From NCBI RefSeq assembly GCF_003002875.1, contig NZ_PVTH01000001.1:62001-126000 (forward strand): a DNA stretch of 64,000 bases, given 5' to 3'. The notes under the pieces were generated by a model. It was not told where the DNA came from. It did no database searches and saw nothing but the letters and a program-made list of their open reading frames with translations. This DNA comes from Arcticibacter pallidicorallinus (lineage in GTDB: Bacteria > Bacteroidota > Bacteroidia > Sphingobacteriales > Sphingobacteriaceae). The stretch's first letter is position 1. The number at the start of each line of letters is the position of its first letter. The position numbers and the translations under genes were made by a program. Positions 39,769 through 53,082 of this stretch are shown here, in pieces.

Positions 39769-39844
39769 GGTATCATAGCTCAGTTGGTAGAGCAAAGGAC
39801 TGAAAATCCTTGTGTCGCTGGTTCGATTCCAGCTGATACCACCA
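39769..39844 (+). tRNA. tRNA-Phe (GAA), copy 1, CCA encoded
   Basis: The acceptor stem GGTATCA/TGATACC, D arm AGCTCAGTTGGTAGAGC, anticodon stem AAGGA/TCCTT with loop CTGAAAA, and T arm GCTGGTTCGATTCCAGC all fold. The anticodon GAA reads Phe. The discriminator A is followed by a genomic CCA at 39842-39844. An identical 73-nt copy is at 42696. Confidence 0.96.
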
Positions 39845-40091: not shown

Positions 40092-41009
40092 ATGATCAGG
40101 AAACCTTTGGCCCTTTGTGTATTGCTAACCATGGCTACACTGGCTATGTCTACACCCGGATTTTCACAGCAACAGTCTGTTGCTGTTCGTCCTACTTCGA
40201 GAGTTGTAGAAGATGGAGGAACAGGTCCACACAGCGCCATTATGATAAGCGAAAGTAGTCTAACTACCCATACCGTTTTCCGCCCTAAAGACTTAAGTGC
40301 ATTCGGTAGTAAGACCAAGCTGCCGATAATTGCCTGGGGTAACGGAGCCTGTGCGAACTCCCCCTGGGAGCATATAAACTTTTTGTCGGAGGTCTCTTCT
40401 CATGGATTCCTGGTAGTGGCCATCGGTCCGATGCCGGCAGAGGGAGAGAAAGGTAGCGGTAGATCAACATCTTCGCAGCTTACGGATGCGATCGACTGGG
40501 CTATCGCTCAGAACAATGATAAGAATAGCCCTTATTTCAATAAGTTGGACGTGAAGAAGATAGCGGTGAGCGGCATGTCATGCGGCGGACTGCAAACACT
40601 TGAAGTATCTGCAGATCCACGTATCAGCACAATAGTGGTCTGTAACAGCGGTATCTTTAATACTCCCGGCAATGGCATCAGCAATATGCCCAACCTGACC
40701 AAGAATAACCTTCAGAAGATTCATACTCCTACTCTGTATCTTCTCGGTGGAGAGACGGACATTGCATATGCGAACGGGATGGACGATTACAAGCAGATCA
40801 ATCACGTACCGGTTTTTGTTGCGAATATGGACGTCGGTCATGGCGGGACCTATATGCAGCCACATGGTGGTGAGTTTGCAAAAGTCGCTACAGCATGGTA
40901 TAAATGGCAGTTGAAGGGCGACAAGGAGGCCGGCAAAGTGTTCTCAGGCAACCCGGCGGGTCTCGCCAAGAATTCGCAGTGGCGCTTTGATAAGAAAAAT
41001 ATGCCTTAG
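40092..41009 (+). CDS. secreted alpha/beta hydrolase
   Basis: This 305-residue protein has a signal peptide (ALCVLLTMATLAMSTPGFSQ, cut near residue 26). The catalytic triad of an alpha/beta hydrolase is visible: nucleophile Ser in AVSGMSCGGLQ, Asp in LLGGETDIAY and His in MDVGHGGTYM. GNGACANSPWEHINFLSEV is a likely oxyanion-side loop of the dienelactone-hydrolase/PETase-like group. Such enzymes are often esterases acting on plant or polymer esters. The GH43-like gene follows 15 bp later, so it may remove acyl groups from the same polysaccharide. The actual substrate is unknown. Confidence 0.82.
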   Translation: MIRKPLALCVLLTMATLAMSTPGFSQQQSVAVRPTSRVVEDGGTGPHSAIMISESSLTTHTVFRPKDLSAFGSKTKLPIIAWGNGACANSPWEHINFLSEVSSHGFLVVAIGPMPAEGEKGSGRSTSSQLTDAIDWAIAQNNDKNSPYFNKLDVKKIAVSGMSCGGLQTLEVSADPRISTIVVCNSGIFNTPGNGISNMPNLTKNNLQKIHTPTLYLLGGETDIAYANGMDDYKQINHVPVFVANMDVGHGGTYMQPHGGEFAKVATAWYKWQLKGDKEAGKVFSGNPAGLAKNSQWRFDKKNMP

Positions 41010-41024
41010 TCCATTCGGCTGTAC

Positions 41025-42659
41025 ATGCACGTATACTTAAATTTTCTTTCTAGTACCAATGCGGTGCGCTGTTTCTTTGCACTTAGCTTTCTTGTCTGCA
41101 CTTGCACTCAGGTAGCAGCTCAAAAGCTCAATATCAAAAATGATGCATTCTGGGACACCACTGACGGCAGGCCGATCTATAGCCAGGGCGGAGGTGTTTT
41201 CAGGTTCAAAGATCCCGGCAGCGGCAAAGAGAAATATTACTGGTATGGCGTTCATTACAAGGAAGCGGAAACCTACCGGAACTCTCCCAACCGCACCTTG
41301 CCACAGGCAAGCTTCGAATCTGTTACTTGTTATACCTCAGTCGATTTAGTTAGCTGGACATTCGAAGCAGAGGCGATGACAAAAGCTGAAGCCTTGCCCG
41401 ATGGAAAGTGGAATTGGGTAGGGCGACTCGGGGTCGCCTTTGTGAAGGAGATAGACCAGTATGCGATGTTCGTGCAGCATGGCTCGGAGGTGCTCATCGC
41501 CCTTTCAGATGTTCCTGCCGGACCATTCAAATGGCATCAGAAGATCAGCATGCTGGATCGTATCGGAACCACAAATACCGGCGATCAGACGGTCTTTACA
41601 GACGAGGATACGGGGAAGTCTTACCTGGTATATTCTTATGGCAGAGGAAGGCATAAGATCTATGTTTCAGAAATCGGGATGAAGAATGGGAAAGTGGATC
41701 TGTTGGATTGTACAAAGATCTTTGAGGGAGCAAGTCGCGAAGGAAACTGCATGTTCAAGTATAAAGGGAAGTTCTACATGGCTGCCTCTAATATCTATGG
41801 CTGGGATGGATCTCTGGCTTATTACCTGGTAGCCGACGATGTAAGAGGGCCATACAGGCCGCATAATGAGATGTTGGTGATGGAGGGTGCCGAGAAAGAT
41901 TATGCTCATGTATCTCAAACCGGATTCTTTGTAACGCTGAAAGGGAGTAAGCAGGAAACGGTTGTGTACTGTGGCGACAGGTGGGCTAACTTCGCCGGGA
42001 ATGGCCTGGGATACAACGTATGGGTTCCGCTGTCGTTCAACGGGGATCGGCCTTATTTTAATTCTCTAAGCTCCTGGAATTTGGATGCCAGGACAGGGGA
42101 GTGGGAGGTAGCAAAGGATAATAACTATGTTAAGAACGGAAGTTTTGAGGCGGATCGCAAGCGGATTCCGAGTGTGGTGAAGCCGGTGCAGATGGTGCTG
42201 ACAGGCTGGGAAACTAGAGTGTTGAAGGGTAATGAGATCTCTCTTGATAGCTTGGTGTCGCCCGCTCTTAACTATTTTAATACAGAGGAAGACCGATTGA
42301 AAGTATCAGGAGAGAAGAGTCTGCAGATTAGCGATGTGGTTGATTTTGAGCGTAATGTTTCGCAGGTGATCAGTTCTTCTCCTTACTTTAAGTTGCCCGA
42401 CGGGTTTTACAACCTCAAGGCTGTTATCCGGAACACCGATGGATTTTCAGTCCTGGAAGTGTATGCGGAGAGTGGAGGAAAACGGCAGGTGTACAAGATA
42501 GAAGGTGCGGATTCTGATTGGAAGGCTTTTGAGCTGAAACGTATACCCATCAGAAATGGTACGGTTGAAATAGGGTTTAGAGCTAATGGCCGTGGCGGGG
42601 CTTCCTGCCAGGTGGATGATGTTTCTTTGACTTTATTGCATATTGAGGCCGGAGAATAA
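41025..42659 (+). CDS. secreted GH43-like beta-propeller enzyme with C-terminal carbohydrate-binding-like domain
   Basis: This 544-residue protein has a signal peptide ending CTQVAAQ near residue 33 and a five-bladed propeller (about 35-360) with GDQTVFTDEDTGKSYLVYSY and ASREGNCMFKYKGKFYMAAS, giving the probable pKa-modulating Asp and acid Glu. The usual N-terminal base Asp is replaced by a glycine-rich SQGGGVFRFKD segment, as I recall for exo-beta-1,3-galactanase-like GH43 subfamilies. The C-terminal part (about 370-540, from NNYVKNGSFEADRKRIP) looks like a CBM-type jelly roll. It probably acts with the hydrolase gene before it. Its tail carries the promoter of tRNA-Phe copy 2. Confidence 0.8.
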   Translation: MHVYLNFLSSTNAVRCFFALSFLVCTCTQVAAQKLNIKNDAFWDTTDGRPIYSQGGGVFRFKDPGSGKEKYYWYGVHYKEAETYRNSPNRTLPQASFESVTCYTSVDLVSWTFEAEAMTKAEALPDGKWNWVGRLGVAFVKEIDQYAMFVQHGSEVLIALSDVPAGPFKWHQKISMLDRIGTTNTGDQTVFTDEDTGKSYLVYSYGRGRHKIYVSEIGMKNGKVDLLDCTKIFEGASREGNCMFKYKGKFYMAASNIYGWDGSLAYYLVADDVRGPYRPHNEMLVMEGAEKDYAHVSQTGFFVTLKGSKQETVVYCGDRWANFAGNGLGYNVWVPLSFNGDRPYFNSLSSWNLDARTGEWEVAKDNNYVKNGSFEADRKRIPSVVKPVQMVLTGWETRVLKGNEISLDSLVSPALNYFNTEEDRLKVSGEKSLQISDVVDFERNVSQVISSSPYFKLPDGFYNLKAVIRNTDGFSVLEVYAESGGKRQVYKIEGADSDWKAFELKRIPIRNGTVEIGFRANGRGGASCQVDDVSLTLLHIEAGE

Positions 42660-42695: not shown

Positions 42696-42768
42696 GGTAT
42701 CATAGCTCAGTTGGTAGAGCAAAGGACTGAAAATCCTTGTGTCGCTGGTTCGATTCCAGCTGATACCA
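42696..42768 (+). tRNA. tRNA-Phe (GAA), copy 2, no CCA encoded
   Basis: All 73 nt are identical to the copy at 39769. After the discriminator A the sequence is CTA instead of CCA, so CCA must be added by the cca product. Confidence 0.96.
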
Positions 42769-42770
42769 CT

Positions 42771-48281: not shown

Positions 48282-48325
48282 AACGGAAGATCGGTTGAAG
48301 ACAGTTTCCGGCAGTTAATTTTCTC

Positions 48326-48380
48326 GGCTCTAAAACAGCGAAGACCCAGGATAATATCGGGTCTTCGCTGTTTTAGAACC
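48326..48380. terminator. long hairpin after the PUL susD
   Basis: A 22-bp stem with one mismatch (CTAAAACAGCGAAGACCC and its complement at the core) and an 11-nt loop. No T-run follows, so it may stabilise the susCD 3' end or terminate weakly. Confidence 0.7.
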
Positions 48381-48469
48381 GAAATTAAAGTCATGTCCTT
48401 CGCTTGATCAAATATCCCGACATGGAGGGTTTTAGATATGTTGTTCAGTAAATTTTTTATTCTTATTTT

Positions 48470-48483
48470 CGTAAACGATTACG
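48470..48483. promoter_or_regulatory. LacI-type operator 1 (before lacI)
   Basis: CGTAAACGATTACG has arms CGTAA/TTACG around a central CG, the usual form of a LacI/GalR operator. It ends 3 bp before the regulator ATG, which suggests autoregulation. The same 14 bp recur at 49526. Confidence 0.75.
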
Positions 48484-48486
48484 GAG

Positions 48487-49506
48487 ATGAAGAAACCAGT
48501 CACGATAAATGATATTGCCAGGGAGCTGAACATTACTGCGGCAACGGTTTCACGTGCTTTAAGTAACCATCGGGAAATCAGCGCGGCTACAAAAGAGATT
48601 GTGCGACAGGCTGCTATCAGACTTGATTATAATCCAAACAAGGTCGCCTCATCATTGCGATCTGGAAAGACAAATATTATAGGGGTACTTATTCCTACGG
48701 CTGAGCATATTTTCTTCGGATCTGTAATTCATGGTATATCCAATGCTGCCAGTATGAATGGATATGAGGTCTTGATCTATCAGTCGAATGAATCAGAACA
48801 ATTTGAGAAGAAGGGCATTAATGCGTTCTTAAATGCGAGAGTCGATGGAATACTTGCCTCAATTGCAAAAGACACAAGGGATTTTTCACACTTTAGCTAT
48901 GTCAAAGAAAAGAATGTCCCCATTGCGTTTTTCGACCGCTTTAATGACAGTTTAGGAATTTCCTCAGTTTGCATAGACGACTACCGGGGTGCTTTTTTAG
49001 CGGCAGAAAGCTTAATTAAGGAAGGGTATAAACGCATCGCATATATCTCCGGTCCCTTGCATATCAAAACCTTTTCTGAACGCGTAAGGGGTTACAAAGA
49101 TGCGCTTGAACAATATGACATGAACTTTGATCCCGGACTTATTTATAATGGCGATATCAGCATTGAGGCGGGAAGGAATGCGATTAAGGCATTCTTTAAA
49201 CTGGAACGAAAGCCTGATGCGATATGTGCGGTGGAAGACTTCACAGCCTTGGGGGCACTTAAGGAATTAAAGGGAATGGGCATTAATGTTCCGGGAGACG
49301 TGGGCGTGATAGGTTTTTGTAATGATTTGTTCAGTGAGCACATTTCTCCGTCGTTATCTACTGTGGATCAGCAGACTGTTGCGATGGGCGAGGAGGCGTT
49401 TGAGCTTATACATAAATTAATTAAGGATGGACATAAGAATCAAAGAGTACATAGGAAAGTACTTGAGCCCATCATTGTACTTAGAGAGTCGTCTAAGAGA
49501 ACCTAA
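48487..49506 (+). CDS. LacI/GalR-family transcriptional regulator of the PUL
   Basis: This 339-residue regulator has an N-terminal HTH (TINDIARELNITAATVSRAL, residues 6-25) and a hinge helix (YNPNKVASSLRSGKTNIIG). The sugar-binding periplasmic-protein-like core spans about 60-335 (FFGSVIHGISNAA, FFDRFNDSLGISSVCIDDY, CAVEDFTALGALKELKGMGI). It probably binds a sugar or sugar phosphate from the imported glycan. Identical operators lie before its own start and before the next gene, so it likely controls itself and the reductase-GH2 operon. Confidence 0.93.
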   Translation: MKKPVTINDIARELNITAATVSRALSNHREISAATKEIVRQAAIRLDYNPNKVASSLRSGKTNIIGVLIPTAEHIFFGSVIHGISNAASMNGYEVLIYQSNESEQFEKKGINAFLNARVDGILASIAKDTRDFSHFSYVKEKNVPIAFFDRFNDSLGISSVCIDDYRGAFLAAESLIKEGYKRIAYISGPLHIKTFSERVRGYKDALEQYDMNFDPGLIYNGDISIEAGRNAIKAFFKLERKPDAICAVEDFTALGALKELKGMGINVPGDVGVIGFCNDLFSEHISPSLSTVDQQTVAMGEEAFELIHKLIKDGHKNQRVHRKVLEPIIVLRESSKRT

Positions 49507-49525
49507 GGGTTTTTTTATGCTGCTA

Positions 49526-49539
49526 CGTAAACGATTACG
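49526..49539. promoter_or_regulatory. LacI-type operator 2 (before the reductase-GH2 operon)
   Basis: CGTAAACGATTACG is identical to the site at 48470 and lies 55 bp before the aldo/keto reductase ATG, within the likely promoter. Confidence 0.75.
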
Positions 49540-49594: not shown

Positions 49595-50587
49595 ATGATG
49601 ACATATATCGCAGAAGCAAACCGTTACGAGGCCATGGATTACCGAAGATGCGGAAATTCGGGACTGAAATTATCTGCATTTTCTCTGGGTTTATGGCATA
49701 ATTTCGGATATGCTAACAGCTTTGAAAATGCCCGGAACCTTTTAAGGACAGCGTTCGACCACGGAATTACGCACTTTGATTTGGCAAACAATTACGGCCC
49801 CCCTTATGGGTCGGCTGAAACTAACTTTGGCAGACTGCTGGATCTCGACTTTCAGCCGTATCGGGATGAACTGATTATCTCCACTAAAGCAGGCTACGAT
49901 ATGTGGGAAGGGCCTTATGGAAACTGGGGATCAAAGAAATATCTCACGGCCAGTCTTGATCAGAGCTTAAAACGGATGAAGCTGGACTATGTCGATATCT
50001 TTTATCATCATCGTCCTGATCCTGAAACGCCCTTGGAAGAAACGATTTCGGCTCTTGATCTGATGGTTCGTCAGGGTAAGGCATTGTACATAGGTATATC
50101 AAATTATCGTCCCGCAGAAGCGGCGGAAGCCTTTAAAATACTGAAATATCTAGGTACCCCTTGTCTCATTCATCAGCCGAAGTATTCGATGTTTGAACGC
50201 TGGGTAGAAGATGGTTTATTAGACTTGCTGGAGCAGGAGGGTGTAGGTTGTATTCCTTTTTCACCGCTCGCCCAGGGCTTGCTTACCGACAAATATTTGC
50301 AAGGTATACCCTCAGATTCCAGAGTGGCTACAAGCGGTAAATTTCTTAACGAAAGTCATATTACGCCCGAGAAGATTGAAAAACTCACTAAACTAAATGT
50401 ATTGGCCAATCAAAGGGGACAAAAGTTGGCGCATATGGCTTTATCCTGGTTGCTTAAAGACCAAAGGGTTACATCAGTTCTCATAGGGTCGAGTAAGCCC
50501 GAACAAATTGTGGATTCTATTATGGCTTTGCAAAATACTGAATTCTGTGAAGAAGAGATTGGCATCATCGACCATATATTAACATGA
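49595..50587 (+). CDS. aldo/keto reductase (YghZ-like)
   Basis: This 330-residue TIM-barrel oxidoreductase uses NADPH to reduce aldehydes or aldoses. The catalytic residues are visible: Asp and Tyr in THFDLANNYGPPYG, Lys in ELIISTKAGYDMW and His in DIFYHHRPDPETPLEE. The YRRCGNSGLKLSAFSLGLWH start and the SRVATSGKFLNESHI segment are like L-glyceraldehyde-3-phosphate reductase YghZ. Start at Met1 or Met2. It is read from behind a LacI operator and is followed after 66 bp by a GH2 gene, so it is probably part of the glycan pathway, perhaps reducing a released aldose. Confidence 0.88.
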   Translation: MMTYIAEANRYEAMDYRRCGNSGLKLSAFSLGLWHNFGYANSFENARNLLRTAFDHGITHFDLANNYGPPYGSAETNFGRLLDLDFQPYRDELIISTKAGYDMWEGPYGNWGSKKYLTASLDQSLKRMKLDYVDIFYHHRPDPETPLEETISALDLMVRQGKALYIGISNYRPAEAAEAFKILKYLGTPCLIHQPKYSMFERWVEDGLLDLLEQEGVGCIPFSPLAQGLLTDKYLQGIPSDSRVATSGKFLNESHITPEKIEKLTKLNVLANQRGQKLAHMALSWLLKDQRVTSVLIGSSKPEQIVDSIMALQNTEFCEEEIGIIDHILT

Positions 50588-50653: not shown

Positions 50654-52981
50654 ATGGTAAATTGGAAAAAGATCACTTTGTTATTGCTCCTTGCGATATC
50701 ACAGGCAGCTATTTATGCGCAGGTAAGAAAGATAACCTCCTTCGACGATAGCTGGAGGTTTTTCAAGGGGGATGCCCCGGGTGCCGAGAAACCCGCTTTT
50801 AACGATCTGGAATGGAGACTCCTTGATGTTCCGCACGATTGGAGTATTGAGGGGCCGTATGACAAATCCAATCCAACGGCACGCGGTGGTGGTTATCTCC
50901 CTGCCGGCATTGGCTGGTACAGGAAAACATTCACCCTGGATGAAACGGATGCCCGCAAAAAGCATTGGATAGAGTTCGATGGTGTGATGATGAACAGCGA
51001 GGTATGGATAAACGGAGCTTATCTGGGTAAACGTCCGTACGGGTATATCAGCTTTAGCTACGATCTGACGAAACATTTGAAAGTTGGAAAGGGGCAAAAA
51101 AACGTTTTGGTGGTGAAGGCAGACAATACTACGCAGCCAGCATCCAGATATTATCAGGGTGCGGGTATCTATCGTCATGTTCGTCTTGTCTCGGTAAATC
51201 CGGTGCACTTTATGAAGTGGGGGACTTTTATCACCACTCCCGAAGCGACAGCTGCGAGCGGTAAAGTAGCTGTCCAGGCTAAAGTGGTCAATGCAAGTGA
51301 TAAATCAGCTGAGTATACGGTTGAAACCATTATTCAAGATGACAGAGGTAAGCCTGCTAAGAGTTCGATATCTAACAAGTCCATCGCTGCGGGGGATACC
51401 CTGGAATTTTCTCAAAATCTCGAAGTGGCTAAGCCTAAGCTTTGGGATATTGAGCAGCCTAACTTATACAAAGTGGTGGTCAAATTAAAATCAGGAGCTA
51501 CCGTTATTGACGATCAGACGATTACTTTCGGTATAAAAACCTCAAAGTTTGATGCTGCCACCGGCTTCTGGCTAAACGATAAGAATTATAAGATCAAAGG
51601 GGTTTGCCTGCATCATGACGCAGGTGCAGTAGGCTCGGCGGTGCCGTTAGCTGTCTGGGAGGAGCGCTTTAAGTTATTGAAAGAAGTTGGGGTAAATGGA
51701 ATCAGAACTTCTCATAACCCGGTAGCCCCGGAATTTCTTGATCTTTGCGACCGTATGGGGTTTGTGGTTATGGATGAGACATTCGACACCTGGACGGCGT
51801 CTAAGCATAATGGAGAGAAAGGCTATAATCTTTACTTCAAAGAGTGGTGGGAACGGGATACCCGCGATATGATTTTGCGAGACCGGAATCATCCTTCTAT
51901 TGTGATTTACAGCATCGGAAATGAAATTCATGATCCGCTCACCTATCCTGAAGGTTATAAGCGTTACAAGGAGCAGGAAGACGTAGTGAAAAAGTTTGAT
52001 CCTACCAGGCCGGTGACGATGGCGTTATTTCGACCAAATGTTTCAAAGGTTTACTCTAACGGCTTCGCAGAACAGATGGAAGTTGTGGGGCAAAATTATC
52101 GTGAGAATGAACTTGTCGCAGCTCACGAAGCGAATCCTCACTGGAAAGTTATTGGGACAGAGAATACGCATGTATTAAGTCAATGGCTGGCATTGCGGGA
52201 TAAGCCTTATATGGCGGGTCAGTTTCTGTGGACAGGATTTGATTATCTCGGTGAAGCGGACTGGCCTGAAACAACTAATAATCAGGGACTATTCGATCGT
52301 GCGAATAACTGGAAACAACAGGCGCTGCAACGCCAAAGCTGGTGGTCGGCTAAGCCAGTGGTTCGTATCGTTCGCAAGTCTGATAACGCGGGAGCAGGAA
52401 ACTGGGTAGCTAATTGGACGCCGACAGACTTTGATACATATGATAACGCAAAAATACAGGTATATAGTAATTGTGATGAGGTGGAGCTTTTCCTGAACGG
52501 TAAATCTCAGGGTACAAAGTCAAAGCCAGCTGACGATTCAGCCCGCGAGTGGGATATTACCTTTGAGCCAGGGACTCTTAGAGCCGTTGGCAAAAACAAA
52601 GGGGTTGAAGTGACGTCAGAAGAATTTAAGAGTGCGGGAGCTCCTGCGAAGCTGATTCTGTCGGCTAGTAAGAACAAGCTGAAGACTAGTTGGGACGATG
52701 CATCGATCATACAGGCAACTATTGTGGACTCAAAAGGGATCCCGTGTACCAATGCAGATAACCTGATTAAGTTTAGTGTTACCGGCTCTGGAAAGATACA
52801 GGGTGTCGATAACGGGAACATTATCAGTCACGAACCCTATGCATCATCGCAGTATCCAGCTTTTATGGGCAAAGCAATCGCAATTATTAAAGCTCAGAAA
52901 GGATCCTCGGAAAAAATAACAGTTAAAGCACAGGCGGATGGTTTAGAAATGGCCTCTGTCATTATTGATATATCGAAATAG
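50654..52981 (+). CDS. GH2 beta-galactosidase
   Basis: This 775-residue enzyme has a signal peptide (ITLLLLLAISQAAIYAQ) and the GH2 order: sugar-binding jelly roll (DVPHDWSIEGPYDKSN, GGGYLPAGIGWYRKTF), immunoglobulin-like domain, TIM barrel from about residue 295, then DUF4982-like and Ig-like C-terminal domains. Catalytic residues are Glu424 in YSIGNEIHDP (acid/base) and Glu503 in VIGTENTHVL (nucleophile). It should cut terminal beta-galactosides from side chains in the periplasm. A 21-bp hairpin follows, closing the reductase-GH2 operon. Beta-glucuronidase or beta-mannosidase activity is less likely. Confidence 0.9.
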   Translation: MVNWKKITLLLLLAISQAAIYAQVRKITSFDDSWRFFKGDAPGAEKPAFNDLEWRLLDVPHDWSIEGPYDKSNPTARGGGYLPAGIGWYRKTFTLDETDARKKHWIEFDGVMMNSEVWINGAYLGKRPYGYISFSYDLTKHLKVGKGQKNVLVVKADNTTQPASRYYQGAGIYRHVRLVSVNPVHFMKWGTFITTPEATAASGKVAVQAKVVNASDKSAEYTVETIIQDDRGKPAKSSISNKSIAAGDTLEFSQNLEVAKPKLWDIEQPNLYKVVVKLKSGATVIDDQTITFGIKTSKFDAATGFWLNDKNYKIKGVCLHHDAGAVGSAVPLAVWEERFKLLKEVGVNGIRTSHNPVAPEFLDLCDRMGFVVMDETFDTWTASKHNGEKGYNLYFKEWWERDTRDMILRDRNHPSIVIYSIGNEIHDPLTYPEGYKRYKEQEDVVKKFDPTRPVTMALFRPNVSKVYSNGFAEQMEVVGQNYRENELVAAHEANPHWKVIGTENTHVLSQWLALRDKPYMAGQFLWTGFDYLGEADWPETTNNQGLFDRANNWKQQALQRQSWWSAKPVVRIVRKSDNAGAGNWVANWTPTDFDTYDNAKIQVYSNCDEVELFLNGKSQGTKSKPADDSAREWDITFEPGTLRAVGKNKGVEVTSEEFKSAGAPAKLILSASKNKLKTSWDDASIIQATIVDSKGIPCTNADNLIKFSVTGSGKIQGVDNGNIISHEPYASSQYPAFMGKAIAIIKAQKGSSEKITVKAQADGLEMASVIIDISK

Positions 52982-53037: not shown

Positions 53038-53082
53038 TAACCAGAAGGCCTTTAGCTCCCCGAGCTAAAGGCCTTCTGGTTA
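53038..53082. terminator. 21-bp perfect hairpin after GH2
   Basis: TAACCAGAAGGCCTTTAGCTC and its exact complement around a CCC loop (stem 53038-53058 with 53062-53082). The stem is long, with no strong T-tract. It separates the two operons. Confidence 0.8.

Follow-up and report, generated by a model that had tools for sequence, protein, structure and literature searches.

The lacI-family gene of Arcticibacter pallidicorallinus that we analyzed in a 64,000-nucleotide stretch of DNA (the window) lies between two identical 14-bp sites, O1 and O2, which are very likely the operators of its own product. Judging from sequence comparisons, the LacI protein would repress its own gene from O1 and a reductase-GH2 unit from O2, a sugar would release it from both, and the neighboring susCD pair and GH43-GH31 genes probably lie outside its control. 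An earlier note on the same DNA had proposed a compact autoregulated two-operator LacI circuit, and both the conservation of the sites across species and the covariation of recognition helix and operator speak for that proposal.

The regulator and its paired sites

The host is a soil-type member of the Bacteroidota with a genome of 4.1 Mb in 23 contigs. The regulator and its predicted operators are as follows.

48470-48483, + strand: putative operator O1, CGTAAACGATTACG, 3 bp 5' of the lacI ATG (48487)
48487-49506, + strand: lacI-family regulator gene, 339 aa, with a PF00356 helix-turn-helix (HTH) and Peripla_BP_3/PF00532 sensor domains
48535-48555, + strand: codons of the recognition helix, TAATVSR (residues 17-23), whose type covaries with operator type among relatives
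49526-49539, + strand: putative operator O2, CGTAAACGATTACG, 55 bp 5' of the reductase ATG (49595)

The protein has the two parts that define the LacI/GalR family, an N-terminal HTH (PF00356, 46.8 bits) and a C-terminal periplasmic-binding-like sensor (PF13377, 108.8 bits), both above cut-off, and it matches CcpA and PurR in the PDB over nearly its full length. It misses the NCBIfam equivalog cut-offs for Escherichia coli GalR (154.7 versus 557 bits) and GalS (142.6 versus 555 bits). Relatives were detected in 109 of 200 related genomes at an E value of <= 1e-40.

The site CGTAAACGATTACG is an imperfect palindrome with perfect arms (CGTAA/TTACG) and the center ACGA, its symmetry broken only by an A/A pair inside the arms; this is the even, CG-centered palindromic form of LacI-family operators with one imperfect pair. 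Both copies stand where the earlier note had placed them, before lacI and before the reductase-GH2 operon, and the exact 14-mer occurs nowhere else in the window, as had been noticed there. A motif search over the whole 4.1-Mb genome likewise returned O1 and O2 as the only exact matches, with no place in that genome matching at one mismatch. When the window was scanned for CG-centered near-palindromic 14-mers repeated within 1.2 kb, O1/O2 was the one pair found. Looser matches to CGTAAACGATTACG were unenriched in the genome, where their total fell below that of a reversed-pattern control and most two-mismatch matches were inside ORFs; the relaxed pattern YGYAANCGATTACG with one mismatch gave 29 genomic matches versus 25 for its control, again unenriched. 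Since the window count at zero to three mismatches (8, versus a chance mean of 4.4) is also near chance, the evidence lies in the exact pair next to a single gene and not in bulk enrichment.

Reach of the regulator within the polysaccharide locus

Two predicted target genes follow lacI, and a hairpin lies on either side of the unit.

48329-48377, + strand: hairpin with a 19-bp stem between susD and lacI, probable terminator/insulator (RNA fold of 48282-48486, z -4.4)
49595-50587, + strand: aldo/keto reductase of the YghZ type (L-glyceraldehyde 3-phosphate reductase family; PF00248, PRK09912 above cut-off), predicted target
50654-52981, + strand: GH2 glycosidase with Pfam GH2 domains, probably a beta-galactosidase, predicted target
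53038-53082, + strand: perfect hairpin with a 21-bp stem after GH2 and before the GH43-led operon, probable terminator/insulator (-37.6 kcal/mol, z -9.5)

The nearest curated models of the GH2 enzyme are those of GalA/GalB beta-galactosidase, below cut-off. We read both hairpins as probable terminators; a simple terminator scan that requires a T-rich tail listed neither.

The earlier note had taken LacI for the regulator of the polysaccharide utilization locus (PUL), and weaker sites or read-through could in principle let it run the entire locus, susCD and the GH43-GH27-GH97-GH31 operon included. The genes are adjacent and co-oriented, and galactose-related enzymes occur in both units (GH2 and GH27). 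We nevertheless consider control of the whole PUL unlikely. No operator was found at the susCD promoter, and the absence of sites at susC and at the GH43-led operon, already remarked upon in the earlier note, held with up to 3 mismatches to CGTAAACGATTACG in both upstream regions. Strong hairpins follow susD and GH2, and the lacI module sits apart from these genes elsewhere. In Paradesertivirga, the module comprises lacI, symporter, reductase, 2Fe2S and molybdenum oxidoreductase subunits, GH88, a Mal s 1-like gene, and GH2; it is preceded by thrS, infC, an LRR protein gene, and a LuxR-type gene, with no susCD in the 10 kb upstream. The window keeps lacI, the reductase (89%), and GH2 (84%) of that module and lacks the rest. 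A homologue of the Paradesertivirga symporter (72%) is encoded elsewhere in the A. pallidicorallinus genome, adjoining another GH2/susCD cluster, and that locus holds no operator match. Among the relatives examined, the lacI module never lies beside these susCD/GH43-GH31 genes, no susCD-linked copy was found, and the closest susCD pairs occupy other contexts. Given the missing sites, the two hairpins, and the other contexts in relatives, the lacI unit is best seen as a separate module, and LacI probably controls the small reductase and beta-galactosidase unit rather than the whole polysaccharide locus.

A broader reading, which we offer tentatively and would not yet favor, is that lacI with an operator at each end forms a regulatory cassette in the Sphingobacteriaceae and relatives, in which regulator, helix class, and operators stay constant while the downstream genes are exchanged, and that here this cassette, insulated within a susCD-GH cluster, may act as a monosaccharide-sensing unit. 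The gene sets exchanged in this way would be galactokinase; symporter-reductase-molybdenum oxidoreductase-GH88-GH2; DUF362-GH88; and reductase-GH2.

Further upstream, two tRNA-Phe (GAA) genes (39769-39844 and 42696-42769) flank an esterase-like gene and a GH43 gene (40092-42659); the first of these tRNA-Phe genes is followed by a tRNA-Val, and susC starts approximately 770 bp downstream of the second. A tRNA gene may have been a site of integration or duplication here.

Conservation of the sites and the proposed switch

Paradesertivirga mongoliensis, whose LacI is 84% identical, has O1 and O2 at the same positions and the same spacing of 1056 bp, each identical at 14/14 bases. In ungapped comparison, 25/60 bases are identical before O1 and 11/48 after O2; the values of 35/48 after O1 and 42/60 before O2 come from stretches that are partly lacI coding sequence. 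That both sites were kept whole while the noncoding flanks mostly diverged shows that O1 and O2 are under selection. In the metagenome-assembled UBA4181 (LacI 66%), O1 is CGCAATCGATTACG and O2 is identical to CGTAAACGATTACG. The genome G038 (LacI 63%) has an identical O1 and lacks O2; as lacI is separated from the gene after it by 9 bp, a single promoter can drive the two and no second one is needed. More distant loci in G036 and G012 (LacI 53-54%) carry a diverged pair, CGCAACCGATAACR before lacI and [CT]GCAATCGATTACG after it, and G043 (LacI 49%) has one site, TGTAATCGATTACG, between lacI and a divergent galactokinase. A conserved operator at the regulator's own gene and at the adjacent operon is the arrangement of an autoregulated local LacI regulon.

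The Bacteroidota promoter consensus consists of a -7 element, TAnnTTTG, and a -33 element, TTTG (PMC6847099), and candidates for both precede lacI.

48441-48443, + strand: TTG lying 20 bp 5' of the -7 box, candidate -33 element for lacI transcription
48464-48471, + strand: TATTTTCG, candidate -7 box matching at 5/6 positions, its last two bases being the first two of O1

The boxes at O1 are TATTTTCG in the window and TATGTTCG, TAGTTTCG, and TATCTTCG in other species. In all four orthologous loci, from four species, TAnnTTCG starts 6 bases before O1, with the same 5/6 match in the same register. A TTG lies 20 bp 5' of the -7 box in the window, Paradesertivirga, G036, and G012 and 18 bp 5' in G038; it is absent in UBA4181. 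As 19% of random AT-rich 21-mers reach a 5/6 match, a single such match comes easily by chance, and the -7 box carries weight only through its common register across the four species. At O2 of the window, the best -7 candidate matches at 4/6 positions and is not convincing; TTnnTTTG directly abuts O2 in G036 and G012. A sigma-70 promoter scan of the window was set aside as uninformative for Bacteroidota. A seven-T run directly follows the lacI stop and precedes O2 (window 49506-49526; counterparts L036 and L037), is kept in three species, and could be a terminator tail or a promoter element.

The overlap of O1 with the -7 box, which recurs in one register in four species, makes promoter occlusion the likeliest way in which lacI is repressed. 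A LacI dimer bound at O1 would sit over both the -7 box and the predicted transcription start and so block its own transcription, a well-supported proposal for O1. LacI on O2, in the gap between the end of lacI and the following operon, would repress the reductase-GH2 unit; occlusion is plausible there. We infer binding itself, repression rather than activation, and the exact promoter at O2.

Besides or in place of simple occlusion, O1 and O2 could cooperate by looping approximately 1 kb of DNA, as their identity and the 1056-bp spacing shared with Paradesertivirga might suggest. Looping is nonetheless improbable: the spacing is 1044, 1094, and 1076 bp in other relatives, making the helical phase inconstant, the position of O2 just follows from where lacI ends and its neighboring gene lies, and G038 has a single site.

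Helix classes, inducer, and relation to known regulons

Assignment of O1 and O2 to the window LacI is best argued in silico from the association between recognition helix and operator. Helices of the type (A/P)ATVSR go with sites of the type GYAAnCGATTAC, V/ISTVSR with TGCAAACGTTTGCA (in one locus TGCAATCGTTTGCA), and ISGVSK with TTCAAACGTTTGAA; some FSTVAR proteins go with TGCCAACGTTTGCA, and at most FSTVAR loci the scan found no site. The association is drawn from about a dozen loci, which include several close relatives and are not all independent. In a protein tree, the window LacI groups with those of Paradesertivirga, UBA4181, and G038 (100/100); AATVSR proteins with a linked galactokinase form another group of lower certainty, so the common helix and operator are either ancestral or convergent.

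Another regulator might bind or share O1 and O2, for example, a LacI paralogue on contig C15 whose related helix is VATVSR and whose predicted site, TGTAAACGATTACA, differs from CGTAAACGATTACG only at the outer pair. We give this little credence, as the outer C/G pair is kept in most orthologous loci of the window lacI and travels with its gene. That the pair is a chance occurrence or a functionless duplicated sequence is scarcely credible: the 14-mer is short, and in some other genomes from this family it also falls inside genes' coding sequence, but it is conserved across species with diverged noncoding flanks and placed beside the same gene in several of them.

The predicted site of the paralogue occurs at C15:39659-39672 (L076:6660), after its LacI gene and before an Fe-alcohol dehydrogenase/DHDPS/PdxA operon, and again on another contig at C8:105550-105563 (L077:6551), 52 bp before a sulfatase-modifying-factor/BNR gene; this pair likely marks a second LacI regulon with a target in trans.

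Across the family, an exact search for CGTAAACGATTACG returned 21 places in 251 genomes: 5 at this lacI (three genomes), 11 in long open frames, and 5 intergenic, all in one other genus. Of these five intergenic copies, only one has a distant LacI-like sequence on the surrounding stretch examined. As most of the 21 places are away from this lacI, the 14-mer alone is unspecific to the regulator family-wide. In genus g15 of the same family, exact intergenic copies at L086, L087, L089, and L098 lie inside an extended near-palindrome (e.g., TTTACGTAAACGATTACGTAAAT), with no relative of the window LacI on the 3-kb stretches around them; they are possibly operators of another regulator.

The sugar that releases LacI from its operators would most likely be galactose or galactose derived. 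We infer this best guess from gene neighbors: a galactokinase gene adjoins related lacI genes in G036, G012, and G043 (divergent), at a paralogue on contig C4 of A. pallidicorallinus itself, and at five further FSTVAR loci. The G043 locus also encodes a symporter fragment 58% identical to the Paradesertivirga symporter; the window's own lacI unit is without a galactokinase. The galactokinase ORF after lacI in G012 (L071:12043-12948; 301 aa) starts well inside the gene and adjoins a gene resembling PD-(D/E)XK transposases; truncation or a frameshift is possible. The galactokinase-linked Sphingobacteriaceae proteins (G036, G012, G043, and the C4 paralogue) are 47-54% identical to the window LacI, and the first three share its helix class and operator type, whereas the C4 paralogue has a different helix (FSTVAR). 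Their target is galK, whereas that of the window LacI would be the reductase and GH2.

The earlier note had regarded this control logic as uncommon, which overstates the case. Of the 1303 LacI-family regulators surveyed by Ravcheev et al. (2014, PMC4052901), 72% were autoregulated and most acted locally; nearly all of their motifs were even palindromes, in most cases centered on CG. In Bacteroides, the LacI-family regulators KdgR, UxaR, UxmR, and UxuR control uronate utilization, running monosaccharide-level regulons beside PULs under HTCS and SusR-like regulators (PMC3878776). The present case fits both pictures. With the surveyed local regulons it shares a LacI HTH and sugar-binding domain, a CG-centered palindromic operator, and sites at its own gene and an adjacent sugar operon; it differs in its own 14-bp operator and gene content and in that O1, 3 bp from the start codon, is nearer than the survey's typical 30-140 bp. 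With the four regulators of Bacteroides thetaiotaomicron it shares the family, monosaccharide-level genes, and separate PUL regulators alongside; those are assigned to uronates, whereas the neighbors of related genes here point to galactose. A regulator from a xylan study (PMC12125979) proved not comparable, being an AraC-type XylR with a LacI-like sensor. This Sphingobacteriaceae regulon was not found in the open-access literature searched.

The locus is very probably a conserved, functional autoregulated LacI switch, ordinary in kind, and it supplies a specific operator, open to experimental test, for a LacI regulator of the Sphingobacteriaceae. Of mild interest are the exchange of downstream genes around a constant cassette, the way the unit seems to be shielded from susCD, and a small code linking helix to operator, with a distinct site for each of four helix classes, from which the sites of related regulators can be predicted. 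A regulator encoded within a PUL-like cluster, the finding suggests, does not have to control the susCD pair, and control of such a cluster may be split between separate units.
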